Shown: in pieces, positions 364 through 19,192 of the stretch
Layout: every line of letters begins with the position of its first letter
Numbering within the stretch: the first letter of the stretch is position 1
Assembly (NCBI GenBank): GCA_027604665.1
Contig: JADGIZ010000184.1
Location: forward strand, 1 to 20,730
DNA from: Polyrhizophydium stewartii
Taxonomy: Eukaryota > Chytridiomycota > Chytridiomycetes > Rhizophydiales
Direction of reading: 5' to 3'
DNA length: 20,730 nucleotides
The notes under the pieces: model-generated
Databases searched by the model: none
What the model was told of the DNA's origin: nothing
Seen by the model: the letters and a program-made list of their open reading frames with translations, nothing else
Position numbers and translations under genes: made by a program

Positions 364-3300
364 ATGCTGCCCTCCGACCACCGTTGCAACGCGGCGGCCG
401 TCTTCGGCATCGACCCCCGGCTTGCCGGATGCCCCGGTCCCTGGATCCCCACCCGCAGGTCCGCACGAGCCCCGGTCGTCCGTGTCTCCCTCACCACCCT
501 GGTCGCCCCCAATCCCGGGCGGCTGCCTTTGCCCGCCGGACGCCCCTCCTCTGCACGCTGCCCACCGGCGGGCGGCCGCGGGCCTCTGCGCGCAGTCCGC
601 CCGCCGCCGGCCTGCTGCTGACAGCCTTGCGCCTGCTCGCCTCTCCGTGTCCCGGCGGCCGTCTCATCGCCGTCGTCGCCCGGCGACTTGCGCCACCGCC
701 AAGCAGCCCTCCCCCTGTCATTGTCCAGTCTCCCGCCGACTTTGACGTCGCTCTGCGCAACAATCTCAACAGGCTCGCCCGGTACGGTCAGTCCATGTGA
801 GTCGATCCTCGCCGCCGCCACCGCCCGGACGTCGCCTGTTCGCCCCTCACCCAGCCTGCTGACCCGCCCCGCCCAGCTGGCTCCATGCCACCGGCTCCCG
901 CTTCTCCATCCCAGAGTCCGTCGGCACCCTCACCACTCTGAAGCATCTGTGAGCCCTGTGCACGCACCCAGAGTCCCACGCCGCGCCGCTGCGTCGCGCT
1001 GACCGCCCTGCTCGCAAAGCACTCTCTCCGGCACCTTCACCGGCCCGATCCCGGACGCCATCGGCAATCTCGTCGACCTCGAGATCCTGTGAGCCCCGAC
1101 ACCTGCCGCTGCAAGATCCCGCCCCACACAGAGTCCTCACCAATGCTCTCGTGCCGCTCCACCTCCCACAGCGAGATCTTCAACACAGAAATCACCTGGG
1201 GCTTCACCGAATCCCTCAAAAGCCTCAAGAAGCTCGAGAAGCTGTGCGCAGCGCACTGCATGCTCGCTTGAATGGCCCCTTGCCCCAAAGACGCTCACAC
1301 CCAACCCAACCTCGCCAAAACAGCATCATCAGGGACAGCCGCCTCAGCGGCTCGATCCCAGACTTCATCAACGAGCTCCATTCTCTCACCGAAATGTGCG
1401 CATGCGGCTCTGCCCGGCAGCTCGTGCCGTTGCGCCGTGCGGCGACCGCTGATGCAGTCTCTGCGTCCCCGCCGTCGTCCACAGCAATCTCTCCAACAAC
1501 AACCTCAGCGGCGTGATCCCCAAGCAGATCACGCTCCTGCCCAGCCTGCGCACCCTGTGAGCTACACTGCCATGTCCCGCATCCGCCCACTTTCCCGCAC
1601 TGACGCCCTGCACAAGCGATCTGCACGGAAACAACCTCAATCAGTACATCCCTGTCGAGATTGGCAGGCTCACCAACCTCGAGCATCTGTAAGCCATCCC
1701 CTTGGTCTGCATGTGCGGCCCAGAGTCACGCCATCCGCCCGCCGCTCACAATCCCCAACCGCCCGGCAGCGACCTGCACAACAACAGGATCTACAGCCCC
1801 ATCCCAATGACCATGCGGAGCCTCGAGAACCTCGTCACCGTGTGCGTTCCCCAGTGCTCGCGCGCCGCCGCCCCCGCACGCGCCGCAGCTGCTGACGCTA
1901 ACGACCATATTTGCCCCTGCGTGCACAGCGATCTCTCCAACAACATCTTGGTTGCTTACGTTCCGGACATTTTCTCGTCGCTGCGGCGGCTGCGAGTCTT
2001 GTGCGTCATCGCCGCCCATGCGATCATCTCGCTCATGGCCCACGCTGACCCGCTAGCTTGCCGTTGGTCAATCTGCCGGCCTGCACTGCATCTCGCATCG
2101 CATGCTCGTCGGAAGCAATGTCGCCGGAAACAGACTGAGCGGCCCGCTCCCCGTCAGCCTCCTGGCCGCCGAATCGCTGCAGTACATGTGCGTGCAGCCC
2201 ATCGCTGTCCTGACCAAGTCTCATCGCCTCTTGCTTCTGACGCACTGCGCTGCTTCGATTCGTTTCTTTCAGCGACATTTCGGACAATGTCGATCTTGGT
2301 TCGCTGCATGCCGCATCTCCCAACTCGAGCATGGAGAGCTTCTTTGAGACGTACGTTGCTGCCGGCCATGGCCAGACAGACCTGCCCGCGTCTTACTGAC
2401 CTGGCCGCGACGCGCAGCAACAAGCCATTTGGAGCCAACGCCGCCAAGACCAGCCTCGGCGACCTCCCGCCCCTTCCGTCTCTCCTCGGCATGTGAGTTT
2501 AGCGGCATCGCTTCTCGCACGACAGCTCAACGGGACTGAGGCGACTGACGGATACGTGCTGCTTGCTGCGGGCTTTTGTAAAACAGCGACATCGCCAATA
2601 CTCGCTTCCGCATCAAGGACCTGTCGTTCCTTGCCGGCCGGACGCTCTACAAGCTGTGAGTATGCCGCGGATCTCGCCGTTGCTGACACCGCATCGCGGA
2701 CCATGCATGCACACGCCTCTGGCCCAGGAACTGCCGAAAATGCTGACGCCTGTTCGTCTGCGTGTCTGCAGTGGCTTCTCGCTCGACGGCGACATGATTC
2801 CGCGCTGGATCTCGTTCCCACCGACGCTCATATCTCTGTGCGTATCAGTCGGCTGAGGGCCACTGCTCACGGCTTTTGAACGGCAAACGCTGCTTTCACC
2901 GCTGACGTTGCGCCACCCAGCCGCCTGTCCGACAGCGGCCTCACGGAGCTGCCTCAGTGGATCACCCGCCTCCAAGACCTCGCCGAGCTGTGGGTCGTGG
3001 CGATTTTGAACCAGACGCCAGCATCCGCCTCAAGTAGCTGATAAGCAGTCCTCCTTCTTTGATGCAATCGATCCCCGTGTATATTGCTTTGGACCTGTCC
3101 GACAGCAATATTTCCGGCAATCGCTTCTACTCTGTGCCTCCGATCCTGCGCGAGCTGCCTTGGCTCAGATCTCTGTGAGAACCGTTTTGTGGCATGACTT
3201 GCTCCTTTCAGTCTCGAGGGACGCTGAGCTGCTTTCTGACGCTGACTTTGTGCCGTGCCATGATTGTCGCGCCGCAGCGACATCTCGAGGAACCACCTGC

Positions 3301-4329
3301 ACCCGGAAGAAAACGGCATCACTCACCTGCCTGGGCTGTATTCGCTGTGAGCTTTGATTGACCGCATCGGTTTTATGCGTTCCTGGCTGCCGGACTGACG
3401 ATGGCTCGGCTGTCATGCGTTGCACAGCAACATTTCAAACACTGGACTTGGCGGCGTGTTCCCTTCGTACGTGTTCAGAACGCTGCTTCGCCTGTGAGTC
3501 CCGCGATGCACCATGGGCAAACATGAGTGTGTCTCTTGCGCTGCGTGTGTGGAGGTGCGCTGATGCTCGGTTGGGTGTCGATGCCATTGCAGAGACATCT
3601 CCAACAACAACTACAAAGGCTTCAGTGGAACGCTGGACCCTTTACTCACGACGCTGTGAGTTGGCTTGTGGTCGCATGAGATGCCTGCTTCTCGCTCTCA
3701 GCACGCCACTGTTTGATGACTCGCTCACCTTGATTTGGCGCTCTGTTAGGCGCACCGTTGGCAACCCGAACCTGTCTGGCGAAGCTTGGCGACATGGCAA
3801 CTTAATGCCTACTGAAGAATCCATCTCGTGCGACCTATCCGGAACGAGCGTCTGCGTGCCGCTTGACCTTGTGACAAAGTGCAATGCAACCTGTGAGTTC
3901 CCCCGCCCTGCCCCGATGGCTTGAACTCACCGCGGCGATCTCGGACTGCAAGCACATGCTGCCGCCGCCACCACCCTCACCACCCCCACCCAAACAGTCG
4001 GCGCACCAAGTTCCGCTCAGATCTGACCGCCCAGCACGCGCACACACGCATACACATGATGTTGCGTTTATGCAGGCTCCTTTCCTTCCGAGTATCCGCC
4101 GAACATGGGCATGCCCTACCGCGCGTTCCCGACCGTGCTCATGTCCGTCTTTGGCGTGCTGCTCGTCGTGATCCTGGCTTCGGCCGGCGTCTTTTGGATC
4201 CGCAAGAAGCGTGCGGCCGAGAGCGTGCCTGGTGTTGGCAGGCCCCGCGGGGGGTCGGCGTCGGCGCAGGGCGGCGGCATCATTGTCAATGAGCAGCAGG
4301 CGCTGCTTTCTGACGACGCCGAGGCTTGA
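364..4329 (+). CDS. Single-pass membrane protein with plant-type leucine-rich repeats (LRR-A), about 21 exons
   Basis: Probable cell-surface or endomembrane LRR protein of about 623 residues; ligand unknown. Exons: 364-501 (LRR N-cap, tentative), 729-796 (start tentative), 877-948, 1020-1088, 1172-1243, 1324-1395, 1485-1556, 1617-1688, 1770-1841, 1929-2000, 2116-2187, 2273-2350, 2418-2492, 2587-2655, 2772-2837, 2921-2989, 3106-3174, 3278-3346, 3428-3493, 3593-3655, 3750-3892, 4076-4329. The early repeats show LSxNxLSGxIP motifs; later ones are shorter and more divergent. The cap has cysteines spaced C-X7-C-X8-C-X3-C, the last codon being split by the final intron (phase 1). A transmembrane helix spans about residues 559-581, then RKKR and a 42-residue tail containing EQQALL (612-617), an acidic dileucine sorting motif. 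There is no kinase or other signalling domain. No clear signal peptide is visible, so the N-terminus is provisional. The 3' half is secure. Confidence 0.8.
877..3655 (+). other. LRR-A exon ladder: 18 one-repeat exons in phase 2
   Basis: Eighteen consecutive internal exons measure 72, 69, 72, 72, 72, 72, 72, 72, 72, 78, 75, 69, 66, 69, 69, 69, 66 and 63 nt. All are multiples of three, and all begin and end in phase 2. Each starts one base into the codon of the last conserved hydrophobic position of the preceding repeat. Introns are 60-116 nt, begin GTGNG, GTAAG or GTACG, end AG and mostly carry CTGAC or CTGAT. One exon therefore equals one repeat of 21-26 residues. Confidence 0.85.
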
Positions 4330-4630
4330 AGGATCTCCGATCCGCTTCGGTCGTGGACCTCTACCGCCGCTGCCTCCACCTCTCCCTCTCCCTCTCCCTC
4401 TTTGCTTTCAACCGTGCACTGGTGGTCGCTGCCTCGCTTCTCGCATCATCTTCATTCGCATGCTCAATGAATCCGCATTTCTGGGGAGGGAATCTGGATC
4501 GGCTCGATGCGGTGGAGGACGGATCAAGCCGTCATCTTGCATCCGATGAAACTTTCCCGCAGGGGATTGCATCCGTCCCGCCAGCCTCCGCCCACCCACT
4601 CCCGACTTCCCGTCTCCGCCACCGCCCGTC
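4330..4630. promoter_or_regulatory. Intergenic spacer between LRR-A and LRR-B with a CTCCCT pyrimidine tract
   Basis: This 301-bp spacer separates the LRR-A stop codon from the first usable LRR-B start codon. Positions 4374-4402 form a pyrimidine tract with repeated TCCCTC units, a common element of fungal promoters. No AATAAA signal is visible. An open frame just after the tract encodes a hydrophobic stretch resembling a signal-peptide core, but it has no ATG, so I did not use it. The spacer probably holds the LRR-A 3' end and the LRR-B promoter, and possibly an unrecognised first exon. Confidence 0.35.
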
Positions 4631-7600
4631 ATGCAGGCCGCTGCCGGAGGAGGAGGAGGAGGAGGAGAGCCGTCGCCGGCCGCAAGCGAGTGCCAGGCGC
4701 TGCAGGGCGCTGGCGTCGTCGAGTCCCCCGCCGAGTGCTGTGGGCAGGAATCCCCGACGCACGCATGCGAGGGCGGGCACGTTGTGGCCGTGTGCGTCCC
4801 GCCCCACGCCGGCGCCGTCTCCCCCCAACGCCGCGTCCACAGCGTCGTGCGGGAGGGGGTAAGGTGCTCTGCCCGTGTCATGCTGATGCTCACCGGCTGC
4901 CTTGTCATGTCTCTCTCGCCGCTCGCCGCTCGTTGCTCGGCTGCTCGGCTGCTCGGCTGCTCGGCTGCTCGGCTGCTCGGCTGCTCGGCTGCTCGGCTGC
5001 TCGGCTGCTCGGCTTGTCTGGTGCTCCAGCGAGCTTGTCGGCGATGCCAGGGCTCTTGTCGAGCGTCTGACTGCTCTCGCGCAGCTGCCGATGCTGCGGA
5101 GCCTGTAAGCTGCGTTTGGCTCCCCCTCCCCCCTTTCTCCTCTGGTGTCTTGTCAGCCCCTGCCGTGCGGCCAGCGTCGCACGCGGCGGCGGGGGGGGGG
5201 GTCGGTCTGCTGACTCGAGCTTGCCGTCGTGTGCAGCGATATCCGTGTCTCATCTGCCCGTGGCCTGCGCGCATCTCCGTCGGCTTCCATCCCCGCTCAG
5301 ATCGGGCTGCTGCGCCAGCTTCATCGGCTGTACGTTGGCGGCGGCGGTAGCGTCCTATCCGCCTTGCCCCGCCTTGCCCCCGCCCCCGCCTGTGCCAGAC
5401 TCGGTTTGCATATTGACGTTGCTTGTGCGTGTATGCATCGGCTCTTGGACTTGGATTTGGGGTTTCCGTGTTTGCTCGTCCTGGCGTGGTTGCGTGCGGG
5501 CAGATCGGTTGTTGCTGAGGATCCAGAGGCGCTGTACGGACGTTTGCCGGACGAGATGGGTGCACTCGTCAACCTGACATCGCTGTGAGTCGGCTCGCGA
5601 GTGTATGCCTGGGTGAAGGATGTTTGTCTGGGTGATGATGCGAGGTGGCTGACTTGGTTGTGCGATGTGCGCTCTTTTTTTTTGGGGGGGGGGCTGCTCG
5701 CAGATCCGTCGAGGGGAACCGTGACAGCGGTCCGTTTCCCGAGTGGATTGCCCGCCTGGTCCGCCTTCAACGGCTGTGCGTGGTCATGCGTGCATGGATT
5801 GGTCGTGTCACGTCCGCCTGGTGCACAGAGCTGATCTGGGTTGTGGGGCTGCCGCTTGGATCTTGCACACGCCGTTGCAACTTTTCTTGGTTTGGCCGAG
5901 AATGCAGGCGTATCGTCAACTGCGGCCTCTCGGGGCCGATCCCAAAACCGATCGCGGGTCTCAAGGACCTCAAGGAGCTGTGCGTGTTGATATGAGCAGC
6001 CGCGTCTGAAGTCGGGTGCGAGGCTGATGATGCCTGATGTCAGGGTTCTTGTGCGGAACGCTATCACGGGGGACATTCCCCCTGCGATTGGCGCGATGCC
6101 CAGTCTCGAGATCCTGTGGGTCGGGCAAATGCATGCTGGTGCTGTGCTTTCGGCAGAGGCTGACTAGTCTATGCTGAAAGCGATCTTGGATTCAATGAGC
6201 TCGGCGGCACTCTTCCCGGCTGGATTGGCGACATGCCGAGCATCAAGTCGCTGTAAGCTCGCCGTATCTCCGTGGACGGGCAGGAGGATAAGGCGAAAGT
6301 GGCGCTGGCTGACAGTTCTGCTCATCAAGTGGGTTGGCGTTCAATGCTTTTAAGGGCACCGTTCCGGCCAGCCTGGCGCGCGCGCAGAGTATGGTTTCAA
6401 TGTGAGACGCACGAGCGGACCTGTGGGCTGCAAGAGGGGGATGCACCAGGCAAGCTGCGTGTGTTAATGCTCGCTTCGTCGCAGCGAGCTACAGGGAAAC
6501 AGCGGTCTCCGCGGACGTATCCCCGACGAGCTCGCTGGTCTCAAGTCCCTACACAGCCTGTGCGGATCTTGCTGCCGATCGAATCTATTTGAGAAGCTTG
6601 CTGACTGGCATGCCTCTTCTGTGCGCCGTGGCAGCGATCTGCACATGACCGAGCTCTCTGGCGGCCCGTTTTCTGGCGTCGATGCGTTCCCGGCCCTGAC
6701 GTCCATGTAAGGCACTGTTTGCACGACCAGGGGATGTCGCCTTTGTGTTGTGTGTGCGGAGACTGGGCATCTGACGACTGTCTGCTCTGGCTGCAGCAAC
6801 ATTGCCAACACGGCGTTTTCGCCGAATGCGTTCGCCTTCCTGGCCGGAAGGCAGATGGACGCCATGTGCGATCTCGCAAGCGCTGTTTGGCTTCCGCGCT
6901 ATGCTTGGATTCGTTTTGCCATGTCTGACAGCTTTCTGTTCAACGTGCGCAAACACACATGCGCAGCGCGCTCTCTGCCCCCGACGGCACCGTACCGGCG
7001 TGGATCAAAGACACCAATCCGGCGTCGCTGTCGATGCGTAAGAGTGGTATCGCGCAGCTGCCCGAATGGTTCTCGTCCTTCAAGCGGCTTGCAAGCCTGT
7101 GCGTCTTGCTCTGCCGCTGAGCGCCGTGATGCCGCCCCATCGACGATGCTGATGGTGGTGGTGCTGCTGTGTTGGTACATCCCGCCAGTGATCTCTCGGG
7201 CAACAAGCTTGCGCGAGTTCCGTCCGTCGTTGGTACCATGACTCGCCTCGAGATCATGTGCGTACACCCACACCCACACCCACACTCTCTCTCTGTATGG
7301 TGAATTCGCGGCAGGCGGCTATCTCGCTGACTGACTCCCACCACTCATGCTTGCTGTCAGAAACCTTGCCGATAACGCCATCTCGGGAGATCTGGCCGTG
7401 CTGCGTGTCCACCCGAGGCTAAGAAGCATGTGCGATGATCGTGGTTTACTTGGATTGTCTTTTTTGGAAGCGCATGCTGATTTGGCGGCGGCTGACGGCT
7501 GTTTCTTGCATCCTGGATGAGCAGCAACCTGGCGCGCAACAATCTCTCGGGACCTGTCAGGAACACGTGCTTCCGCAAGCGCAGCTTCCCGCAATCTCTG

Positions 7601-8271
7601 TAAGATCTGCGGGCAGTGGATGGCGCGCGCGGGGGAGGGCGGATCAAGCTTGATATCTTGCGCTCGAATCACGCAGCGAGATGGGATCTGACTTTGCCCC
7701 GTGGATGAACTCGATGCAGGGATATTTCGGACAATGACTTTGAGGGCGACGTGGGCGGATGCTTTGACCACCAGGCGTACACGCTCCTGTAGGCACAAGA
7801 GCGGTGTTTCTGACGCACATGTGGGCATATGCCAGTCAACGCTGACAAGACGATGCGATACCGCTCGACTCGCTCGCGATCGTCCTCAACTCCAGCAACC
7901 TGCGCGGAAACAGCAAGTTGCACGGCAACGCGGACGCCGAGTTTGTGGTCGGCGTCGGAGGCGGCTGGCGCAAGGTGTGCGACTTTTCGAGCACCGCTGT
8001 GTGCGCGCCGGGCGAGGACGGCATGGCGCTGTGCACGGCGAGCTGTGCGTTTGAGCCGGCCGGAGCGCTGCCGCCTGCCGTGTACATTGGCGCCGTGGCC
8101 TTGTTCATCGTGGTTGCCGTCGTCGGGAGCGCCGTGGCGGCGGTGTACGGCAAGCGGCGCGACGGCGGTGCCGATGGCGGCAATGCAGCACAGGCGGCAC
8201 AGGCGGACGAGCGCAGGCCGCTGCTTGCGGGTGCCGGCAGTGCACCTGGCAGTGGAGGCGGAGATGCGTGA
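4631..8271 (+). CDS. Single-pass membrane protein with plant-type leucine-rich repeats (LRR-B), paralogue of LRR-A
   Basis: Probable membrane LRR protein of about 591 residues. Exons: 4631-4791, 5030-5104, 5237-5329, 5504-5584, 5704-5775, 5908-5979, 6044-6115, 6181-6252, 6330-6401, 6485-6559, 6635-6706, 6797-6865, 6967-7098 (two repeats), 7189-7257, 7361-7429, 7525-7599, 7720-7788, 7896-8271. Exon 1 encodes a poly-Gly run from a GGA repeat, then an LRR N-cap (SECQALQG, a CC pair, CEGGHVVAV). The repeats are plant-type (for example LSGPIPKPIAGL). The last exon holds a cysteine cap (C-X7-C-X9-C-X3-C), a transmembrane helix at about 530-552, KRR, and a tail with ERRPLL (572-577). The same architecture and tandem position mark it as a paralogue of LRR-A. 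LRR-A has an extra intron before the transmembrane exon that is absent here. No signal peptide follows the first ATG, so an upstream exon may be missing. Confidence 0.8.
4643..4666 (+). repeat. GGA trinucleotide run encoding poly-Gly in LRR-B exon 1
   Basis: A short GGA microsatellite near the 5' end of the first LRR-B exon encodes about seven consecutive glycines. It is in frame with the N-cap and may vary in length. Confidence 0.6.
4935..5014 (+). repeat. Tandem repeat, ten copies of the 8-mer GCTCGGCT, in LRR-B intron 1
   Basis: Ten perfect head-to-tail copies of GCTCGGCT fill 80 bp shortly before the 3' splice site at 5029. The 8-bp period is not a multiple of three. The array is open in several frames, where it would encode RLLGCSAA-type repeats. 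Splicing exon 1 (ending 4791, phase 2) to exon 2 (starting 5030) removes it and restores the LRR frame, so it is intronic. Confidence 0.85.
5676..5694 (+). repeat. Homopolymer pair (T run followed by G run) in an LRR-B intron
   Basis: A run of about nine T is followed directly by about ten G inside the intron 5585-5703, just upstream of its AG. The T run could serve as the polypyrimidine tract. The exact run lengths may be unreliable in sequencing. Confidence 0.5.
7262..7294 (+). repeat. CACACC / CT microsatellite in an LRR-B intron
   Basis: The intron 7258-7360 begins GTGCGT and continues with repeated CACACC units, then a short CT run. It is simple-sequence DNA with no coding role. Confidence 0.5.
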
Positions 8272-8303
8272 CGGGGACCTCGTCGGAAGTTTCTTTTGTG
8301 GCA

Positions 8304-8981
8304 ATGAACACGCTGGTGACAGAGGCCGGGGTCGGTGCTACGAGCGACGGCGACGGCGACGGCGGCGCGGCACACGACGGACAGCCGAGACCGACGCTCG
8401 TGTGGGAGCGGTACGCCGACCAGGTTGCGCACTGGCCGACCGAGGGCCGCCACGTGCTGGCGCAGTTCACGGCGGACACGGTCGTGGTCTATCAGGCATT
8501 CAACCAGGCCATCGGACACGCCGCCGTCCGCCAGCAGCGGCTCGCCGGCGCGCCGGGGTTCAAGCTCGACCGCATGTCGTGGATCAAGCCGGGCTTCCTG
8601 TGGATGATGCACCGCTGCGGGTGGGGCAGCGGCCTGCGCGGCCAGGAGGCGGTGCTGGCCATCCACATGCGGCGGGCGGCCTTTGAGGCGCATCTCGCCG
8701 CCGCGCTGGTGCTCGGGCCTGGTGTTGTGCCGGGCACCGCGCGCGGCCGCGACGTGGTCGTGCAGTGGGACCCGGACTACGACCCGCGCGACGTGCGGCT
8801 GGGCCGCCGCGCCGTGCAGATCGGCCTGCGCGGCGATGCGCTCGGCCGCTTCGCGAGAGACGAGATCGTCGCCATCGAGGACATCACGCAGCGGTGTCGC
8901 GCCGCGCACGCCGAGGCGGCCGTCGGCAGCGCGTCGCTCGAGACGCCGCGCGAGCGGGTGCTGGTGCTCGGCGGCGAATGA
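8304..8981 (+). CDS. DUF4291 family protein, intronless
   Basis: A 225-residue protein of the DUF4291 family, a domain of unknown function known mainly from bacteria and some fungi. Family signatures are visible in order: TADTVVVYQAFNQAIG, MSWIKPGFLWMMHRCGWG, VLAIHMRR, QWDPDYDP, RAVQIGLRG and IVAIEDIT. The ATG at 8304 is the first in-frame start; the frame is open upstream to 8268 but only with GTG. The first 30 or so residues are low-complexity and the conserved part starts near WERYADQ. The gene lies only 32 bp after the LRR-B stop and has no intron, whereas every other gene here is split. That contrast suggests acquisition from bacteria or a retrocopy, but this is inference. No function can be given beyond the family. 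Confidence 0.85.
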   Translation: MNTLVTEAGVGATSDGDGDGGAAHDGQPRPTLVWERYADQVAHWPTEGRHVLAQFTADTVVVYQAFNQAIGHAAVRQQRLAGAPGFKLDRMSWIKPGFLWMMHRCGWGSGLRGQEAVLAIHMRRAAFEAHLAAALVLGPGVVPGTARGRDVVVQWDPDYDPRDVRLGRRAVQIGLRGDALGRFARDEIVAIEDITQRCRAAHAEAAVGSASLETPRERVLVLGGE

Positions 8982-9092
8982 AGCGCCGGATCGGCGAGCG
9001 CATGGCACGGGCTCGGGCACGGATCCCTGCGGCGGGCTGCATCGATCTGGCGGCGTCCGCGGCCGCGGGCCGTGGTTGCCGCCGTCCCCGCC
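8982..9092. promoter_or_regulatory. Short spacer between DUF4291 and threonine aldolase genes
   Basis: This 111-bp GC-rich spacer must hold the 3' end of the DUF4291 gene and the promoter of the threonine aldolase. I see no TATA-like or AATAAA element in it. Confidence 0.3.
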
Positions 9093-10929
9093 ATGCCAAT
9101 CCGCTTCGTGCTGTCGCCCGCCACCCGCCTGCCGTCCGCCGTGGCGGCCATGCCGCGCGCCGCGGTCCGCGCCCGCCTCGCCGCCCGCCTGCCCGCACCC
9201 GCCGCGCTGCTGCGCCCGACCGCCTTCAAGCCCGCCGCCCCGGCGCAGCTGGCCGTCGCCACCGCCGCCGTCGTCACCGTTGCCGCGGCGCCGGAGCAGC
9301 AGCACGCGACTCGCGCTGCCGAGGCCGCCGCGAGCGAGCAGCCGCCCGCCGCTGGTGCCGCCGCAGGCGCCGAGGCCGCCGACGCCGCCGACGGCCCGCG
9401 CACTGCGTCCATCTACACCCGCCGCCAGCTCGCCATCGAGGACCCGCAGGCCTTTGCCGACGTGCGCAGCGACACGGGTGCGCGGTCGATCCGCGGAACT
9501 CGGCGGCCGAGAGATGCCTGGCGGTGCTGACGCTGGTCCGCCGGCAGTGACCCGCCCGTCGCCCGACATGCTGCAGGCCATGATCGCCGCGCCTGTTGGC
9601 GATGACGTCTTTGGCGTGAGTTCCGCTTGCACTTGCTTGCCGCTCGGCATCAGATGCTGAAGCCGCTCGCCTCGTGCAGGAGGACCCGACGATCAACGAG
9701 CTCGAGAGGACCGTCGCAAGGCTCGCGGGCAAGGAAGCCGCGCTCTTCTGCGCCAGCGGCACCATGAGCAACCAGGTGGCGATCCGCTCGCATCTCACGC
9801 AGCCGCCGTACTCGGTGCTCTGCGATGCGCGCGCGCACGTCCTCAACCACGAGGCTGGCGGCATCGCCTTCCACTGCGGCGCGGCCGTCGTTGCAGTTCC
9901 CCCGCGCGAGCACACGGGCCACCTCACCGCTGCCCTCGTCAAGCGTCACCTGATCACCTCGACCGACATCCACACCACGCCGACCCGGCTCGTCTGCCTC
10001 GAGAACACCTTGAACGGCAGCGTGCGTCGTCGCCGAGGTGCGTGCACTGGCGTCGCTCTGACCGCTCTGCTGACTGACGCATACCCGTGCGTTGGCCATC
10101 GCCCCCGCCCCGCGTGCTCCAGGTCATGCCCATCGACGACATCCGCGCCATCTCAGAGTTTGTGCGCGGCAAGGGCATCCCGATCCACCTCGATGGCGCG
10201 CGCCTCTGGAACGCATCGGCCGCGACCGGCATCTCCATCAAGGATTACTGCTCGCACTTTGACAGCGTGTCGCTCTGCTTCTCCAAGGGTGGGTTCAACA
10301 CGCCATTGTGCTCGCAGCCTGGCCAATGTGCGCCTGCCGGGGTGGAAGGGAGCGCGGTGCTGACGAGTGCGGTGCGGGGACAGGTCTTGGTGCTCCCGTC
10401 GGGTCGGTTCTTGTTGGTGAGCCTGCATGCCTTGCCCAGCAATACAACCATCTCGCTCGCCCCTTCGAATCACTGACGGCTGTCCTTGAACCTCGCCTCG
10501 CCGCCGCTTGCCGCAGGATCGACCGAGTTCATCGCCAAGGCACGCCACTTCCGCAAGCTCTACGGCGGCGCGATGCGCCAAGCTGGCATCCTGGCCGCCG
10601 CATGCCTGTACGCGCTCGACCACTACTTCCCGACCCTGTCAGAGGTCCACGCCAACGCGCGCTACTTTGGCGACGCGCTCGTGGCCCTGGGCTTTGGCCT
10701 CGACCGCCCCGTCGAGACCAACATGGTTTGGCTCGACACGGCGCCGCTCGGCCTCGTTGCCGACGACGTCGCCAAGGTCCTGCTCAAGGCCCGCATCCGC
10801 GCTTTTGGCGGCGAGGACACGGTCATGCGGATTGTGCTGCACCACCAGGTCTCGCGCGAGGACCTTGAGCGCGCGGTTGCTGAGCTCACGGTGTATGTCG
10901 CCACGCTTGGACCGCGGCGCGCAGCCTGA
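9093..10929 (+). CDS. GLY1: Low-specificity L-threonine aldolase with mitochondrial-type presequence, six exons
   Basis: PLP-dependent enzyme cleaving L-threonine or L-allo-threonine to glycine and acetaldehyde. Exons: 9093-9477, 9548-9615, 9680-10021, 10123-10288, 10384-10416, 10517-10929, giving 468 residues. Motifs in order: DVRSDT joined to VTRPSPDML across intron 1, EDPTINELE, ASGTMSNQVAI, AHVLNHEAGG, ENTLNGSV, IHLDGARLWNA, then CFSKG with the PLP-binding lysine at the end of exon 4. GLGAPVGSVLV is encoded by a 33-nt microexon and is needed to restore the conserved core. About 120 residues precede the catalytic domain. They start MPIRFVLSPATRLPSAVAAM and are rich in Arg and Ala, with no acidic residue in roughly the first 65, as in a mitochondrial presequence. 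The first conserved-frame ATG is 9093. Introns of 64-101 nt mostly carry CTGAC. Confidence 0.92.
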
Positions 10930-11137
10930 ACCACCACGCTGGGATGTGTGCATGAGTGTGGGGTGAATGTGGGTGTGGATGCTGTTGCCTGCGATCATGT
11001 GCGATTGCATTCTCTCCGTCTCGGAAACGCTGCTGTACTCTTCTTTCGCTCTCCTTGTCCATCAGCCGAAATGAAGCCAGAGGGACCACACAATTCATAT
11101 TCATGCTTGTTTTGAGAATGTCGCGGGCAGCCTCGTC
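10930..11137. other. Tail-to-tail spacer between threonine aldolase and ATG7
   Basis: The 208-bp region is flanked by two stop codons on opposite strands and must hold both 3' ends. It is less GC-rich than its surroundings, with GT-rich sequence after the threonine aldolase stop. I see no canonical AATAAA on either strand and no gene. Confidence 0.5.
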
Positions 11138-14118
11138 TCACATGGCGTCGTCGTCGTCGTCGTCGTCCCACTCGACGTCAAGCGTATCGCCGGCCGAGTG
11201 CAGCTCAGCAAGCCCCGAGACTTCCTCGAGGTATTTTGGCGACGCGAGGCCCTTGAGTACAAAGTCGTGGCCGTTGCGGGCGTACAGATCCAGCACCCGC
11301 GCAGAGCATGCAGGGCACTTGTCGAATGCCTGTGCTACGACAAGCAGGTTGGTGAACTGCCCGAGCGAGCCACGGATCTGGTGTGGCATCGCGCCGAGGA
11401 CCGAGTTGCCCGGAACGCCTGTTTCGTTGACGGCCGGTGCCCAGGCGCTGCGATCAACGGTGCAATGTCAGCCGCACGGCACTCGCAGCATCTTTGGGGG
11501 GGATGCGGGACAAGAGCGGGATGCGCACCCCTGCGGATGGCTCAGGATCGAGGAGAGCAGCTCAACAACGAGCGCGCTGGCGATGCCCGACAGCCCCGGC
11601 CGTGTCACCGTGCACTGCTGGTCGAGCGTGCGGTCCGCGAGCGACTGCCGTGCACCATCCAGTGCGTGTCAGCTTGCCTGCTGATGCCGTCATTGCACAA
11701 CACAAGCGACGCAACGCTCGCCCTACATCCGTCGGTGCGACCACGTCCGTGCAAAAGTAGCATCCCAGGCTGACGGGTGAGTCGCTGCCCTCGGCGCTCG
11801 CAGCAAACGGATTGGTACCACGCATGCCGTGGCGCATAACCAGGAACGTGTCGAACCCAAGCGCCGCATTGAGCACAATCTAGGCATGCATCACCGTCAG
11901 CTGATGCGGCGTCGAGTCGCACGACTCCTGCAAGGTGCTGTTGATGCAGACGCATCCTAACCTTGCCCATGCTGGCGCCAAGCAGCGTCGGCAGCCAGCG
12001 GCTCTCGCGGCTGTCCGTCAGCAGAAACACCGCGTCATGAGCGCGCACAAGATCTTCGAGCGCCGCAATGTTCTTCTTGATCACGTCCGCGGACTGGATC
12101 GAGTGTCCAGGCATGGGAATGCTGAGCTCGCATCCGACGGCATTCTGACGCACAGCAAACAGTCTGGCGGTCAGACCATGCGCATCTCCTGGCACGCACA
12201 TCTGCAGATCAGCGCGACGCTCACCACGCCTGGAAAGACCTCCTTGAGGGCCGCCGCTGCCGCAATGGCTTTGGGTTTCCCGCCGTCGAGGCAGTCGGCA
12301 AACTTGAACAGCGGCTGGCGCACTGGGTTCGAAAACGAGACCTTGCCATTGTCCACGAGCGTGATGTTGCGCACACCCCACGCCTGGCAGCCGTCGGCAC
12401 CACGCGCGTCAGCTCAGTATCTCCAGCCGGCGTCACAGCCTGCACCACTGCGCACCATCAGGATGCGCGCAACGTAGCATCCCAGCGTGCCGGCGCCGAG
12501 CAAAAGACACTTTGTCTGCGAGATGCGGTCGAGCTGCAGCTCGGGCAGGATGCGCCACCGCATGAGCTTGAGGTTCAGATCAACGGCCGTCTCAGCCAGC
12601 CGCGTGGGGTCCATCAGCGGGGCCAGATCCGCCACGCGCGGGCTGGGCTTGCCCTGCACGCCCTTTTCCCATCCCACGGACTTGGGCTCGTCTGCACCAA
12701 AAACCGCATGGCAAGAGATCACGGTAAGCTGCGGTCACGCATTCCTGCTCGGCACATGCGAGAGAGAGACCACGCACCGGCAAACGCCGACAGCTGCACG
12801 TCCAGAACGATGCTCGCCGAGATGTCGTCGCGGCGGCGGGACGACTCGCGATAGCACACAACGCGCACGCTGCGTGCAAACCACTGCGTCGCCACCAGCG
12901 CCAGGAAGTTGCGCAGCGGCCAGCCCGGGTTCTCGGATAGCCCCGACGGATCGACAAACCCGATCGTCTGCTGCTTGCCACACATAAAAAGGATCAGCGA
13001 CGGATATTTCGCATGGTCGAGGGAGAGCCCGGATCCACCTTCTGTCCTTCGCCAAAGAAGGTGCCAAACTCGGCCACATCTGCAATCGCAAATCCGCCGT
13101 TCTCGAGCGTTTTGAGGAGGAAGAATCCGGGCGAGACCGAGACCGCGCGGAAGCGCTCGTACTCGGAGCGCAGGCGGTCGAGCTGTCCATACGCCATGAA
13201 AGACCTTGTAAGCTTATCGCCCCACATGAAAGCAACCATTCCTGCCATAGGCTTTCCATGCTTCAACACCCACCGATTCGGCGCCGTAAACCTCGGCAAG
13301 CGGCCGCACGGGCGTCTCGAGCTTGAAAGGCTCGAGCGGCAGGATGGCCGGGAAGGCGAACCAGTAATAGAACTTGTACTTTTTCAGATCTGCAAAGGTG
13401 AGCAGCAGGAAGCGGCCCAGCAGGCGCGGGTCTTGTGCCGCTGCGCCAGAGAGGATGTCCTGCCAGATCTGCCGCGCCGGGGCGAAGCGAACCACGTCAG
13501 GCGCCTGTGTCGGGGTCGGAAAGCAAGGCCGAGCTGGCAGCCAGGTGGTCACGCACCTCGAGCGTGATGGTCTTGAGCAGGCTGTTCTTGTCGACGGCCT
13601 TGAACTCCTCGATGGTGTTGGTGTTCTTGAGCGTGCCCGGCACGAGGAACTCGCGCGAATTGATCTGGCTGCTCGGTTGCCGCGCAGTGTGTCAGCGGCC
13701 GCTGGCGGCGTGCTGATCGCAGCGGCTCAGGCCTGGCTCGGGTAGATGCGGCCGCGCTGCGGCTGCCTCCGCCGAAGCCAGGGTGCTTATGGAGGGCGAG
13801 AGCAAGGCGGTCGACGCACCGCTTGAGCTTGGAGAAGGACGTTGCGTTCACGCAGAGCCGCGCTGGCAGCACGTCTTGCGGTGCAGCTGCCGCACCGGCT
13901 GTGCCTGCTGCGCCCGCGCCGCCGCCGGCCGACGCGGGCTGGCTGCTACCGGCGCGGTCGAGCGGGAAGGCATCGCCGCTCGAGTAGAAGCCCTGGATCG
14001 GCACGGTGGCATCGTCGAGCTTGTACACGTTGATCTTGTTGTTGCCCAGGGTGTGCCAGAACGTCGCCTCGATGGCGCTCTGGAAGGGCTCGAACTGCAG
14101 CAGCGTCGGCTCGGCCAT
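11138..14118 (-). CDS. ATG7: Autophagy E1-like activating enzyme Atg7, 11 exons
   Basis: E1-like enzyme that activates Atg8 and Atg12 and passes them to Atg3 and Atg10 during autophagosome formation in the cytosol. Exons in gene order: 14118-13820, 13668-13557, 13504-13274, 13212-13039, 12970-12778, 12691-12456, 12383-12225, 12144-11962, 11879-11727, 11644-11529, 11447-11138, joining to 721 residues. The N-terminal domain shows [45 protein letters not shown] and [18 protein letters not shown]. The C-terminal E1 domain shows the nucleotide-binding loop GAGTLG (402-407), [29 protein letters not shown] and [13 protein letters not shown]. It also has the zinc-type pairs CYFC and CPAC, and the catalytic cysteine in [13 protein letters not shown] (about Cys591). 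[11 protein letters not shown] follows, and the protein ends in a poly-Asp tail. A Gly/Ala-rich insert lies near residues 59-80. Exon 5 starts at a triple NAG acceptor, so its first residues are uncertain by one or two. Confidence 0.95.
11146..11166 (-). repeat. GAC trinucleotide run encoding the poly-Asp C-terminus of ATG7
   Basis: GTC repeats on the plus strand encode seven consecutive aspartates just before the last two residues of Atg7. An acidic C-terminal end occurs in other Atg7 proteins, but the pure run looks like a microsatellite that has expanded in frame. Confidence 0.7.
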
Positions 14119-14228
14119 GTCGGAGTGCTTGCTTTCCTGCGTGCGGAGAAGGAGCAGAAGGCATGCGGCCGTGGGCAGGTGAGGGGTCGGTGGATGCCCC
14201 GCGGACACGACGCGGACACGACCACCTG
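14119..14228. promoter_or_regulatory. Shared divergent promoter region for ATG7 and the Som1-like gene
   Basis: 110 bp separate the ATG7 start codon (minus strand) from the chosen Som1-like start codon (plus strand). An alternative plus-strand ATG at 14163 would shorten this to 44 bp. No TATA box is recognisable. Promoter function is inferred from gene orientation alone. Confidence 0.4.
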
Positions 14229-14659
14229 ATGGATGCCGACGCTCGCCAGCTCGCCCCGAGCACGCTGCACCACGGGATGTCGCCCGACAGCATCGCGAGG
14301 CCGCGGCCGCTGCCGCCGTCCGTCACAAGCGCCGGCTGGCCGGCCGGCCGCGCGGGGATCGCGGCCTCGGCGGCCGCGGCCGGCGGCGGCGACTGCGTCG
14401 TCGACAAGGTCGTGCAGTTCGAGTGCCGGCTCGACTTTGACCGCATCGTCTGTGCGCCGGTCGAGCGCTTCTTCCAACGGTCGGTCGTGCTCGGCCGTGC
14501 TGTTCATTGGCTGCATGCCCGTGCGCTGACGCCGGCCGCGCCGTCGACGCTGCCGCGTGCTGCAGGTGCGCCGGCTTCGCGGCTGTCGAGATCACGCCGA
14601 CGGCAAAGGACCGGTCGGCCAACCCCGAGGTCGTCAAGGGGGTGCCGCACTGGGGTTGA
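14229..14659 (+). CDS. SOM1: Twin-CX9C Som1-like mitochondrial intermembrane-space protein, two exons
   Basis: Exons 14229-14479 and 14566-14659 give 114 residues. Splicing in phase 2 joins VERFFQR to CAGFAAVEITP and creates the last cysteine. The result has a twin CX9C arrangement: C56 and C66 (CVVDKVVQFEC), then C75 and C85 (CAPVERFFQRC). This is the hallmark of small proteins oxidised by Mia40 in the mitochondrial intermembrane space. The pattern C-X9-C, V-C-x-PV-x-R-x-F-x-R-C followed by VE-x-T resembles fungal Som1, a partner of the inner-membrane peptidase Imp1/Imp2. About 50 low-complexity residues precede the domain. The donor (CG|GTCGGT) is weak, but the frame and motif support it. 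An ATG at 14163 in the same frame is possible. The last 26 bp overlap the end of the LRRC43-like gene on the other strand. Confidence 0.7.
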
Positions 14660-17570
14660 GGCGCAACTCTGCGTGCAGCATGCCCACGACCGGCGGCCCA
14701 TAAGGCGGCGCTGGATCGGCGGCATCGGCTGCCGCGGGCTGGGCAGTGCGGGTCGACTCCGCCGAGGACGGCGCCTGCGAGTGGGCAGCTGGCGCGGGCG
14801 ACGGCGCCTGGGATGCCTGCGTGGCTGGTGCAATCTGTCCGTCGGCCGCCACGACGCCCGCTGCCACAGACGCTACAGAAGCCGCCTTTGCCGCCGACCC
14901 AGGGCCTGCATCGGCTGCCGCACTCGCCTGGTCTGCCGGCGACTTGCCCGGAGACGGAGGCGGAGCCAGCCGGAACGGCCCGCCGACGAGGCTCTGCAAC
15001 GGGCCTGCTCAGCAAGGTGAAGCCCGCAGCACCGCTCGCACCAGCGCACGCACCGATCCCATCAGAAAGTCCCTCAGCGACACCTTGCAGACGCCCTGCA
15101 GCGTCGTCTCGGCCTCGGACAGCACCCACTGCATCGCTATCGCCACGGAGCCAGATCGCCGGCTGTCAGCACCCACTGCCAATAACACCCATCTGCATCG
15201 GCATCCGAGTCCGCTTCGGCAGCTGCCTCTCACCTTGGTCGTCCTTGCCGCGCTTGCCCTTGCCCGATGCGCCGCCAGCCCCGGCTGCGCCGGATCCGCT
15301 CGCAGGCGGCCCGCCAGGCTTGCCGCCCTTGGCGTCGGCGGGCTTCCTCGCCCCAGGGTTCGCACTGCCGAGCGGCTTGCCGCCGGCTGCTCGCGACTTG
15401 ATGGCCGCCGACCCCGCGCGCGACGGTGCCTCGGATCCGCCGTCGGCCGTGGCCGGGCGGGACACGTAAGTCGAGCGACGCCGGAACAGACTGACTGTCA
15501 TGCCGTCTGCGAGTCCATGGCGGCGGCATCGTCGATCAGCTTTGGCTGTTACAGGATGCGCGATCAAGGCGCTCTCGCTTGCCCGCTAGTGCGTCGCGCA
15601 ACTCCACGTTGACCTGCAACTCGGCAAGGTTAGCGAAGCGCAGCTCCATGGATGTCGGTGACCATGCGATCGGCTGCGTCGTCACGGGCGTGTTGGCAAG
15701 CGTCTTGAGCGCAAACTCGAGGTAAAAGTGGAACCTGCGAGGCGGGTGTCAGCTCGCTTGCTCAAACATCACACAAACGCAGACGCAACTCCTCGTTTGC
15801 GCCAAGTGCACTCAACTCGTCTGGCGGCTGATCTGGGTTCTCTGCGGCTGGCGCGACAGGCTCTGCGATACCGGTGATCTCGGTCACGGCGATCCGAAGC
15901 TGCACTGCAAACGCGATGTGTGTCAGCCATGATCCCTCCTGCGACCGAGTCGGCTGACATGTCTCACCGCTCGAGCGCTGCCCAAGCAAGCCAATCTTTC
16001 CCGACGCTGTGTAGCGCTCGCCGTCAGGCACGGCCGTCTCGTCGAGAAACGCGAGCTTGGTCAGGCTGCCGATGAGATACTGGCGGTACACGCTGAAGAG
16101 CGAGAGCGGGTTGCCCTTTGCGTCGCCCAGCATCAGCAAAACGAGCACACCGCCCATATCGCCAGCATGCTGCATATCGGCTCGCGCGCACCTGCAAGAC
16201 AAGGATCTTGAGCGATGGAAGAGTCTGCAGGTATGCCACGGTCTCGTCGAGCGCCGTCAGGCTGTTCCACGATAGATCCAGCGAGACGATCGTCGGCGGC
16301 AGCCACTGGGTGAAGGAACCTGGAACGAGCGACGGGCCAAGCAGGCGGCTGCCCGACGTGGCCACGGACCGCGCGAGCGACCGGTTCCCGAGCGACATGT
16401 TCAGGTTCCCGCGCGAGGCGAGCATGTCGCCCATGGACCCGCGCACGCCCGCGCCGGCGTCCGGCTGCATCTCGCCGCCGGAAACAAGCAGCGTATCGAG
16501 CTTGTTGAAGCTGAGGCCCAGGTGCATCAGCTTGTCCAGATGCGCGACGTTTGGCGCCACGGTGATCATGTTGGCGTTGAGATGCAGGATCTGAACGGAT
16601 GCTGGGATGTGCTCGACTTGTGCGATCAGGTTGCCCGTCAGGCTGAGCTCGGTCAGGTTCTTGAACTTGAGCAGGCCCTCGTCGATGCGCGCGATCTTGC
16701 GGCCGTGCAGTCGCAGCGTGCGGAAGTGCGTGTGGAGGAAGTCCATCGTGGACAGTATGCCAATATCGGCAGCGTCTTTCTTTTGGGCGAGTACAGTGCT
16801 CGAGTGTGTGTTGCCGCGGCGAGCATGCGATGGCTGTTGTGGCTCGTGTTCTTGATCGCCTGGGGCAAGAGACTCGAGTGTCTGCTTGCGGAGGTGCTCT
16901 AGGAACAGCTCCTTGAGTCTCGGCGCCTCACTGCTCCACGAGAGATCGGCTGCAGGTCGAGCAGGATGCAGAGTCAGCGACTTTGGGAACTCATTGCTTG
17001 CGCGACAAGGCACCCACCATCGCGCCATGGGTCCAGATCGGCGTCGCACAGCACCTGCTCCACAGAGCCCGCTGGCAGCTGCGAGGTGAGCAGCGGCGGC
17101 GGTTGGACGTCGTCGTAGAGCGTCTGGAAGTTGGACTCGGTCTTGGACGGCACGCGTCGATGAGACGAGCGAGTCTTGTTGGCGCTGAAGCGGTTGAGCA
17201 TCTGCTGGTACTCGCGGCGTTCGTCCTTGGTCGGGCGGGCGGGACGTGAGCGCGGCGTGGACCCACGCGCGCCCGCAGACGCTGGTGCCGACTCTGCCGA
17301 GCCTGTTGTGCGCTTGCCCGCCGCCGCTGCCTGCTGCAGCGCGGAATGCGGGTGGACTGCCTTCTGTGCCTTGGTCGCTGAGCTGGATCCCGCGCCACCG
17401 TCGGCAGCACGAGCTGCGGCGCCACCGCGCGGAGCAAGCAGTGTGCGTGGTGATGAAGCCGTGGCCGCCTTGTGAGCGCCACCGCGGTCGCGCTCGCGCG
17501 GCTTGATGCCCGTGGTCTGGCCGAGCACGGTCTTGAACGCCGCCGTCACTGTGCCTGGCGCGTCGCCCAT
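14634..17570 (-). CDS. LRRC43: LRRC43-like leucine-rich repeat protein of the axoneme, eight exons
   Basis: Likely ciliary/flagellar LRR protein; LRRC43 is linked to motile cilia in animals. Exons in gene order: 17570-17018, 16949-16192, 16115-15968, 15904-15775, 15734-15553, 15506-15234, 15136-15050, 15004-14634, giving 833 residues. A basic, disordered N-terminus of about 185 residues precedes the LRR region in exon 2. That region shows FRTLRLHGRKIARIDEGLL, KFKNLTELSLTGNLI, SVQILHLNANMI, LMHLGLSFNKLD and IVSLDLSWNSLTALDETV. LKILVLQ then joins GNPLSLFSVYRQYLIGSL and LAFLDET, the characteristic LRRC43 end of the repeats. VQLRIAVTEITGI and FHFYLEFALKTL follow, then Gly/Ala/Pro/Lys-rich linkers. 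The repeats carry no per-repeat introns, unlike LRR-A and LRR-B. The last two exon joins are the least certain. The gene follows the glycosyltransferase-like gene by 99 bp on the same strand. Confidence 0.8.
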
Positions 17571-17669
17571 GCTTTGTCGGTGCCCTGCTTCTGTCGGGTG
17601 AACCCGCACATCCACATGCTAAGCGCTATTTGGCACCGGTGAAGCACGCCCAGCGCACGACAGCCATGT
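17571..17669 (-). promoter_or_regulatory. Spacer upstream of the LRRC43-like gene with an overlapping upstream ORF
   Basis: 99 bp separate the stop codon of the glycosyltransferase-like gene from the LRRC43 start codon on the same strand. An upstream ATG at 17617 opens a 23-codon reading frame that ends at 17546, past and out of frame with the main start at 17570. If transcription starts above it, it would reduce LRRC43 translation. No TATA-like box is seen. Confidence 0.35.
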
Positions 17670-19182
17670 TCATTCCGCGCGCGTCAAGTACTGCGGGGCC
17701 ACGAGTCCGTACTTGGTCAGCTGCGGCATCTTGCTCTCGATGCTGCCGCGCTCCTCGGTGGTGGCCGGCAGCGTCACAAGAAGATCTGCAACCTCCTGAC
17801 GGCCAAAGAGCTCGCGTGGGGCGTCGTGTGCCTCTGCGGCGGTATCAAGCACGAAGGTGCGGTTCTCTGGGATGTTGAGCGCGACAAAGAAATGGCGGCT
17901 GTGATGCAATCTTGAGGCGAGGAAACTGCGATTGCTGGTCAGCAAGCTCGGCAAGATGGACAGGTCGGGATTGCGCGAGCACCGACCTCATCCACAGCGG
18001 CTGCGTCGTTGGCGCGGGAACATCTTCAAATGCATGGCCGCTCGAAGCCGCGAATGGGACGTATTCGCCGAGAAGCACCCGGCGGGCGAGCACCGACGAG
18101 CGGGGGTCTGTCTCATGCGCAGAGTCGAGCAAGCGCTTCCAGTCCGCAAACTCAGTGCTAAAGTCCCGCCAGATAGCCTTGCGCGCCAGCACACCCGAGG
18201 CCGGCACGCTTGCCGAGTAAACCAAACGCGATGCGGCGATGTTGCGGCGACTGTCGCTGGATCCGGGCCAGTAGCCGAGCGTCGCTGCCACGTGTGGCTG
18301 CGTGACGAGGTTGCATCCGGCCAGCTGCGATCCGAGATGGAAGGGCGGCCGCTCGAGAAAGACTTTTACGCACCAGCGGGCGTACTGGAGCGCAGCAGGA
18401 GACACCGAGGCGGTCTCGTCGAGCACGAGTGCGTATGGCGACCCGGATGGCCAGCGCGCAGCAACGATGCTTGGGAGATCGTCTCGTGCCATGCGCACAT
18501 CGATGCGCTTGGTGCCATGGCGCCATAATGCGGCATGCACAGCCTTGACGACCTTGACAGGCGCGTCCAAAGCCATGTGCAGGTGCAGCTCGATGTTGTC
18601 GCGGATGCCGGTCGAGTCGGCGGCATCGAGTTGCGCGAGGAGTCGCTGGAGGGCCGTGTGGTTGCGATCGACAAAGATATGCACCGAGAACAGCGTCTGA
18701 GAGGGATATTGATCGCTGGGCTGGTCGGCGCTCCCAGCTGCGGTGACAGCGTCGAAGCTGAGCGAGGCATCCATCCCGACCGTGCCGCGCTGCCGCGCAC
18801 GCTCGGCACGACGGCGAAGCTCGTCCGCCTCGATGCTCTCTTGGATGTGGTCGATCCAACCGTCGAGCGGCCTAGACAGCATCGGCTTACGCGCTGCTCG
18901 GCTCATCGTCACTGCAGCCAAGGCCTGCGTGCGCAGACGCCAGAGTGAGACTTGCAGGGCGGTCGCAAACAACGGCGGCGACGCTCCGACTCCGCCGCGC
19001 CGGCTGGTGGGGGCATCGGAGCCGTCGTCGTCGGGCCCCGCGAGCACGGCGAGTGCGTGCGAGGCGTGCGTCGCACTCTCCTGGACCGCATCTCTGTGAA
19101 GGCGCCCAGGCGTGTCGACCAGCAGCGTCAGGTGCAGCGCCAGCAGGGCCAGCAGCACCACGACCAGCGCACGGCGCAGCAT
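17670..19182 (-). CDS. Type II membrane protein, glycosyltransferase family 2-like, two exons
   Basis: Exons in gene order 19182-17987 and 17925-17670 give 483 residues. The start ATG at 19182 is the first in this frame. It is followed at once by MLRRALVVVLLALLALHLTL, a short basic end and a hydrophobic signal anchor (about 5-22), as in Golgi type II enzymes. The lumenal part resembles GT2-like proteins of fungi and plants: SVHIFVDRNHTALQRLLAQL, IELHLHMALD, then YALVLDETASVSP, where a D/E-D-D type metal motif is usual. The C-terminal exon carries FFVALNIPENRTF, matching the family's late YPNFPNxTS-like segment. Phase-2 splicing across a CTGAC-containing intron is needed to reach it. In place of the acidic triad the protein has DET (255-257), so metal binding and activity are uncertain. 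It could be a divergent or inactive member. Confidence 0.7.
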
Positions 19183-19192
19183 CTTGCGCGAG
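19183..19192. promoter_or_regulatory. 10-bp gap between two divergent start codons
   Basis: The only sequence between the glycosyltransferase-like ATG (minus, 19182) and the L2HGDH-like ATG (plus, 19193) is 10 bp. If both starts are correct, each promoter and 5' UTR must lie inside the other gene's first exon, and the two transcripts overlap head to head. An additional upstream exon of either gene would remove the problem. Confidence 0.4.

Follow-up and report, generated by a model that had tools for sequence, protein, structure and literature searches.

When each leucine-rich repeat (LRR) of a gene lies on its own frame-compatible exon, does the gene assemble different receptors by splicing, or do its exons serve as modules over evolutionary time? 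The question is raised by two adjacent plus-strand genes, LRR-A and LRR-B, in a 20,730-nt stretch of the chytrid Polyrhizophydium stewartii (Fungi, Chytridiomycota, Rhizophydiales). This stretch, hereafter the window, is contig C184 (JADGIZ010000184.1) of a 12.86-Mb genome in 690 contigs. A preliminary description of the locus had claimed 18 consecutive exons in LRR-A and 16 in LRR-B, all multiples of three in length, bounded by phase-2 introns and nearly all encoding one repeat, and had proposed that they form a combinatorial splicing system. We modelled both genes with a Viterbi gene finder that permits all three intron phases and takes its codon usage from the other genes of the window; a second setting added the LRR-A exons to the codon table, and control runs drew codon training from outside the tested region only. 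The exon ladder of LRR-A and LRR-B is real. With outside-only training the longest run of phase-2 exons is 20 in the LRR-A region and 9 in the LRR-B region, while runs in dinucleotide shuffles (40 per region) never exceed 4 and the reverse complements of the two regions give 2 and 5. All 18 LRR-A and 16 LRR-B ladder exons are open in a single frame, and Pfam LRR_8 matches both proteins strongly (E = 2.7e-32 for LRR-A, 2e-29 for LRR-B). Each gene is a series of consecutive phase-2 exons that are multiples of three and hold one LRR each, allowing for two degenerate exons in LRR-A and one two-repeat exon and five hand-set exons in LRR-B. Every ladder exon can be skipped in frame, so the frame-compatible, splice-swappable architecture that had been described is present.

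The LRR-A part of that description was recovered in full. The unconstrained model places 18 consecutive exons from 877–948 to 3593–3655, every one a multiple of three and phase 2, and the result is unchanged under the second setting. Their lengths range from 63 to 78 nt. Exon 1 (877–948, 72 nt) and exon 2 (1020–1088, 69 nt) are followed by exons 3 to 9, all of 72 nt (1172–1243, 1324–1395, 1485–1556, 1617–1688, 1770–1841, 1929–2000 and 2116–2187). Exons 10 (2273–2350, 78 nt) and 11 (2418–2492, 75 nt) carry repeats that are degenerate by inspection. The remaining exons are 12 (2587–2655, 69 nt), 13 (2772–2837, 66 nt), 14 (2921–2989, 69 nt), 15 (3106–3174, 69 nt), 16 (3278–3346, 69 nt), 17 (3428–3493, 66 nt) and 18 (3593–3655, 63 nt). 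A Viterbi exon at 729–796 precedes the ladder and represents the N-terminal cap region, the true start of the gene not being located. Beyond the ladder lie a C-cap exon at 3750–3892, which runs from a phase-2 start to a phase-1 end and was curated by hand where the Viterbi model splits it, and a last exon at 4076–4329, curated by hand to omit a 45-nt intron proposed by the model.

The LRR-B ladder extends from 5030–5104 to 7720–7788, and all 16 of its exons (69 to 132 nt) are open, phase 2 and multiples of three as claimed, but only part of this series comes from the automatic model. Exons 1 (5030–5104, 75 nt), 2 (5237–5329, 93 nt), 3 (5504–5584, 81 nt), 4 (5704–5775, 72 nt) and 8 (6330–6401, 72 nt) were never recovered automatically with both borders correct, and these exons are hand-curated. 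The Viterbi model supplies exons 5 (5908–5979), 6 (6044–6115) and 7 (6181–6252), each of 72 nt, as well as 9 (6485–6559, 75 nt), 10 (6635–6706, 72 nt), 11 (6797–6865, 69 nt), 13 (7189–7257, 69 nt), 14 (7361–7429, 69 nt), 15 (7525–7599, 75 nt, in two of three runs) and 16 (7720–7788, 69 nt). Exon 12 (6967–7098, 132 nt) was found in one of three runs, under the second setting, and holds two repeats; this exon and the two degenerate LRR-A exons qualify the claim of one repeat per exon, which applies overall. A Viterbi exon at 4631–4791 is probably the N-terminal exon with a Cys-rich N-cap, an uncertain assignment, and the last exon spans 7896–8271 (Viterbi). An 8-base tandem repeat occupies positions 4915–5014 in the 5' part of LRR-B, after this putative N-terminal exon and ahead of the first ladder exon.

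Past the ladder, both proteins continue in the same order with a Cys-rich cap, one hydrophobic segment, basic residues and a short tail. The Cys motif of the cap is common to the two genes (3750–3892 in LRR-A, within 7896–8271 in LRR-B), and both tails (4076–4329 and 7896–8271) contain ExxxLL, which we take to be a possible endosomal sorting signal. The hydrophobic segment, a putative transmembrane (TM) segment, and the tail were read from the sequence. A Pfam scan of the two proteins returned LRR families only, with neither a kinase family nor a ROC-COR GTPase domain. LRRs identified by Pfam, together with a single putative TM segment and a short tail, would be compatible with receptor-like proteins.

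A public protein of the same species, HK105_201417 (P0001, 313 amino acids), is identical to LRR-A at 100% over 58% of the query (among the best 120 of 1213 proteins). It covers LRR-A exons 3 to 14, 12 of the 18, without change, and both of its ends read into introns. All 11 internal junctions, beginning with that of exons 3 and 4, consequently agree between the two gene models. The AlphaFold model of P0001 is an LRR solenoid with a mean predicted local distance difference test score (pLDDT) of 80.7, lower in the second half. Ten of the 11 internal junctions, at residues 34, 58, 82, 106, 130, 154, 178, 229, 252 and 274 as counted from the modelled LRR-A exon lengths, lie in predicted beta-strands; the remaining one, residue 204, lies in a low-pLDDT stretch, and degenerate exon 10 is likewise of low pLDDT. 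Including the two end borders (residues 10 and 297, also in strands), 12 of 13 are in strands. Exon borders are thus predicted to occupy a fixed position of the repeat, and in the model one LRR-A exon corresponds to about one solenoid coil, so that skipping an exon would remove about one coil. Of the 50 matches listed as closest solved folds, nearly all belong to plant LRR receptors; one is a SHOC2 chain. A homologue search with LRR-A residues 255–577, which include the TM tail, retained 76 proteins among 7995 candidates scored, nearly all of them plain LRR matches whose sources are plants, animals, bacteria and metagenomes; fungal names among them include Hortaea, Funneliformis and Fonsecaea. 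This search is blind to proteins shorter than 0.55 of the query length, which places P0001 itself out of range, and says little about whether the gene is absent from other fungi.

LRR-A and LRR-B are colinear tandem paralogues of probable receptor-like type. Their proteins are 28% identical over almost the full length (BLASTP E = 1.6e-48). When repeats are scored one against another, with LRR-B exon 12 split in two by hand, the colinear chain is equalled or exceeded in only one of 2000 shuffles of the LRR-B order. The 132-nt exon 12 of LRR-B is the counterpart of LRR-A exons 13 and 14, indicating that one intron was lost or gained. There is no DNA match between the two genes, no intron of either resembles another intron, and no trace of recombination of exon-intron units is found within or between them. 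Exchange of exons between the two genes was considered and ruled out by the absent DNA match and the colinear order. Judged by these sequences, the pair is old with its order retained, which is evidence against frequent shuffling at this locus. The retention of this order, and of a nearly equal number of repeats, at only 28% identity suggests selection for a product with the full array.

The one-repeat phase-2 LRR exon design is genome-wide in P. stewartii. We scanned the window and 13 contigs or contig parts reached by LRR searches for exons of 57–89 nt, in whatever phase, that contain an LRR motif, and obtained 253 single-LRR candidates, which may share a donor or acceptor and are not all separate exons. 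Phase 2-2 accounts for 152 of the 253, and of these 110 are exactly 72 nt and 21 exactly 69 nt. Phase 0 to 2 is the second-largest class with 47 candidates, most commonly of 83 nt (11 times). Four further stretches, chosen from a protein search for ladder-spaced matches, gave 30 candidates, 26 of them phase 2-2 and 24 exactly 72 nt, bringing the total of exactly 72-nt phase-2 candidates to 134. Candidates in phase 2-2 with a length of 69, 72 or 75 nt are spread over 14 contigs, with at least three on 11. The main scan contributes 62 on C176, 17 on C512, 13 on C96, 11 on C94, 10 on C30, 9 on C184, 7 on C575, 3 on C580, 2 on C310 and 1 on C465; the further stretches contribute 10 on C573, 9 on C75, 5 on C422 and 2 on C477; C573 and C75 each include one candidate that represents an alternative start of the adjacent one. 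The 110 exons of 72 nt conserve the LRR consensus positions and vary at the others, as in any LRR. These counts are lower bounds, drawn from the best-scoring candidates in a small part of the genome.

Viterbi models of 13 contigs assign phase 2-2 to 172 of 251 LRR-like internal exons. Low shares in C91 (2/10), C109 (0/2), C464 (0/3), C310 (4/11) and C465 (3/10) imply that ladders do not account for all LRR genes, with the caveat that several models are of low quality: those of C91, C464, C109, C87 and parts of C30 and C465 are poor outside their LRR stretches, and their exons are kept in the count of 251. Loci L051–L055 (C33, C199, C294, C273 and C38) stand outside the candidate scan and model counts; L051, on C33, was modelled and has no visible ladder. 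C176 is the most extended case, with 74 of 79 LRR-like exons in phase 2-2, including fused exons of 2, 5, 17 and 26 x 72 nt. Its gene model (L036:139-10000, L037:1-5415) spans about 15 kb and comprises about 120 LRRs, mostly on 72-nt phase-2 exons; the repeat number is a loose motif count made on a single run, which divides the 17-repeat exon differently. A protein kinase domain lies ahead of the LRR exons in the gene models of C575 (L038) and C310 (L044), and partial kinase matches are present in C512 (L039) and C96 (L048). A 172-bp stretch at 88% identity is common to two LRR contigs (C30:17406-17576 and C465:5556-5726; L063, L045).

At two places the sequences point directly to array growth by recombination of exon-intron units. 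In C176 a 716-bp block with three introns is duplicated at 97.9% identity, its exons differing by three silent and three amino-acid changes. C75 and C422 (L072:487-1388, L073:1-901) have 902 bp in common at 96.3% identity, exons and introns alike, and these blocks may be alleles. Within them the third exon is identical at 62 of 72 positions versus 93–99% for the other exons and introns and holds 10 of the 32 mismatches (binomial probability 1.3e-4 for a single specified segment). This divergence hints at exon replacement producing a mosaic exon, and no donor was found among the loci examined. The diversification by duplication and recombination that had been proposed is therefore visible elsewhere in the genome but not in the window, where the two genes are diverged and colinear with dissimilar introns. 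Among 207 ladder introns, 35 of them from the window, the only similar pairs are three, all from the C176 duplicated block. An origin of the introns as introners was rejected, since these three pairs include no set of many near-identical introns. Intron starts are GTGCG in 57 of the 207 and GTGAG or GTAAG in 98. If the phase-2 introns of LRR-A and LRR-B (window positions 797–7895) were retained, the first intronic codon would be a stop in 18 of the 35 (GTRAG in phase 2), and 8 of the 35 have no in-frame stop at all.

We consider it likely that LRR-A and LRR-B are tandem receptor-like ladder genes that arose by unit duplication, act chiefly as evolutionary modules and are probably constitutively spliced into one main product. 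They would encode kinase-free receptor-like proteins with a plant-type LRR solenoid, a Cys-rich C-cap, one TM segment and a short tail, which may bind a ligand either extracellularly or within an endosome. Each phase-2 exon would supply about one coil, with the intron interrupting the codon of a beta-strand residue at a constant position, so that gain or loss of coils preserves the frame and recombination can alter repeat number. The ladder would belong to a genome-wide gene set whose most likely origin is duplication of exon-plus-intron units, some introns being lost later. Several points weigh against this account. The exon structures of both genes are models derived from sequence; neither a signal peptide nor a certain first exon or 5' end was located in either gene (no signal predictor was used); and the borders of 5 of the 16 LRR-B exons were placed manually, guided by the LRR frame and by splice sites. 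With so few similar intron pairs, all in one block, direct evidence of unit duplication is confined to that block and C75/C422, and the older exons may also reflect repeated intron insertion at one site of the repeat.

Such insertion could account for the whole ladder if an intronless 72-nt repeat array gained introns independently at the same repeat site, the large fused exons of C176 being ancestral. The mutual dissimilarity of the introns is consistent with this, but intron loss explains the fused exons equally well, no intron family is seen, and the introns that are similar sit in blocks duplicated along with their exons; we regard parallel insertion as unlikely. Frame compatibility also lends itself to the combinatorial splicing originally proposed, in which one locus would yield receptors with varied repeat number and repeat sets through skipping of LRR exons, by analogy with what is proposed for brown-algal ROCO genes. 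Each ladder exon is skippable at a cost of about one coil, and a published 72-bp phase-2 system has annotated splice variants differing in LRR content (PMC11378527). Unit duplication alone, however, would be expected to produce frame compatibility, and LRR-A and LRR-B have kept both the order of their exons and almost the same number of repeats; we regard combinatorial splicing as improbable. That splice-like sites line up as ladders by chance, or that the genes are decaying pseudogenes, is very improbable indeed: degenerate LRR-A exons 10 and 11, the truncated public gene model, the 5' end that was not located and the five LRR-B exons missed by the automatic model would fit such an origin, but shuffled runs of at most 4, the 18 and 16 exons open in one frame, the Cys C-cap and ExxxLL tail common to both genes and the strong Pfam matches are hard to reconcile with it.

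The design itself is known from brown algae, ciliates and animals; the comparisons that follow draw on the available parts of the cited texts. Brown-algal ROCO genes have 72-bp phase-2 exons with one LRR each and annotated splice variants of differing LRR content, and LRR-only genes with such exons also occur in that genome (Teng, 2024; PMC11378527). Those proteins are ROC-COR GTPases, in contrast to the receptor-like and kinase-LRR proteins of this fungus, and splice variants are reported for them, whereas the P. stewartii ladder is known from genomic sequence. In ten species of Tetrahymena, nearly 50,000 LRR exons measure exactly 90 bp, and phase-2 introns separate more than 96% of these exons (PMC6564038). 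These are likewise genome-wide arrays of equal-length LRR exons, credited there to ectopic recombination, but they differ in length from the 72/69 nt found here, and T. thermophila has one possible fused exon compared with several in P. stewartii. In vertebrate gonadotropin receptors, which are unrelated proteins, the introns are all phase 2 as here (discussed in PMC11378527). Human NLRs also have frame-preserving LRR exons with borders always at one beta-sheet place, and an NLRP3 isoform without exon 5 is known; unlike the P. stewartii ladder, the NLRP exons (171 bp) of these unrelated proteins carry two repeats of 28–29 amino acids (PMC6642158). Plant LRR receptor-like proteins resemble LRR-A and LRR-B in their LxxLxLxxNxLSGxIP-type consensus, single hydrophobic segment, short tail and nearest listed folds. 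The host here is a fungus, homology is not demonstrated beyond the LRR, and the plant N-cap family PF08263 is absent from the Pfam matches in a scan that took in the modelled LRR-A N-terminus but not the LRR-B exon at 4631–4791.

In Fungi, a one-exon-per-repeat ladder appears to be new. None is reported in the papers listed from the open-licence literature, as judged by titles and abstract openings, which agrees with the earlier claim of novelty; that claim does not extend to the P. stewartii genome, where ladders are common, or to the published 72-nt phase-2 design of brown algae (PMC11378527). In a survey of 49 fungal genomes, LRR receptors were reported absent from 45; the exceptions include the chytrid Batrachochytrium dendrobatidis, which additionally carries four LRR-kinase genes (PMC2939053). 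Its proteins combine LRRs with a TM helix or with a kinase, like those described here, and chytrid LRR receptors are thus not new in themselves; the exon structure of its LRR genes is not clearly given and no ladder is mentioned in the available text of that paper. P. stewartii is described as a close saprotrophic relative of Batrachochytrium, a nanopore assembly of P. stewartii exists, and the available text describing it uses neither LRR nor leucine-rich (PMC12204190). The available parts of PMC2817689 and PMC5296948 contain no usable statement on LRR exon phase.

P0001, the sole public protein found for LRR-A or LRR-B among the matches listed, has 12 of 18 exons and ends that read into introns, so such genes could be overlooked or shortened in surveys based on predicted proteins, and part of the reported rarity of fungal LRR receptors may be an annotation effect. 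A wider and doubtful possibility is that the ladders on at least 14 contigs, spanning membrane receptors, kinase-LRR proteins and the ~120-repeat model, form a modular LRR system that diversifies by exon-block recombination and splicing. It would parallel the brown-algal candidate immune receptors while being independent of them, and would amount to a recognition repertoire within a kingdom in which LRR receptors are thought to be almost lacking. If exons were indeed shuffled or alternatively spliced, P. stewartii would represent a further lineage using one design for such a repertoire.

Downstream of LRR-B (window positions 8268–20476), the neighbouring genes encode a DUF4291 protein, a threonine-aldolase-like Beta_elim_lyase protein, an ATG7-like protein (minus strand), an LRR_4 protein (minus strand) and an FAD-dependent DAO protein.

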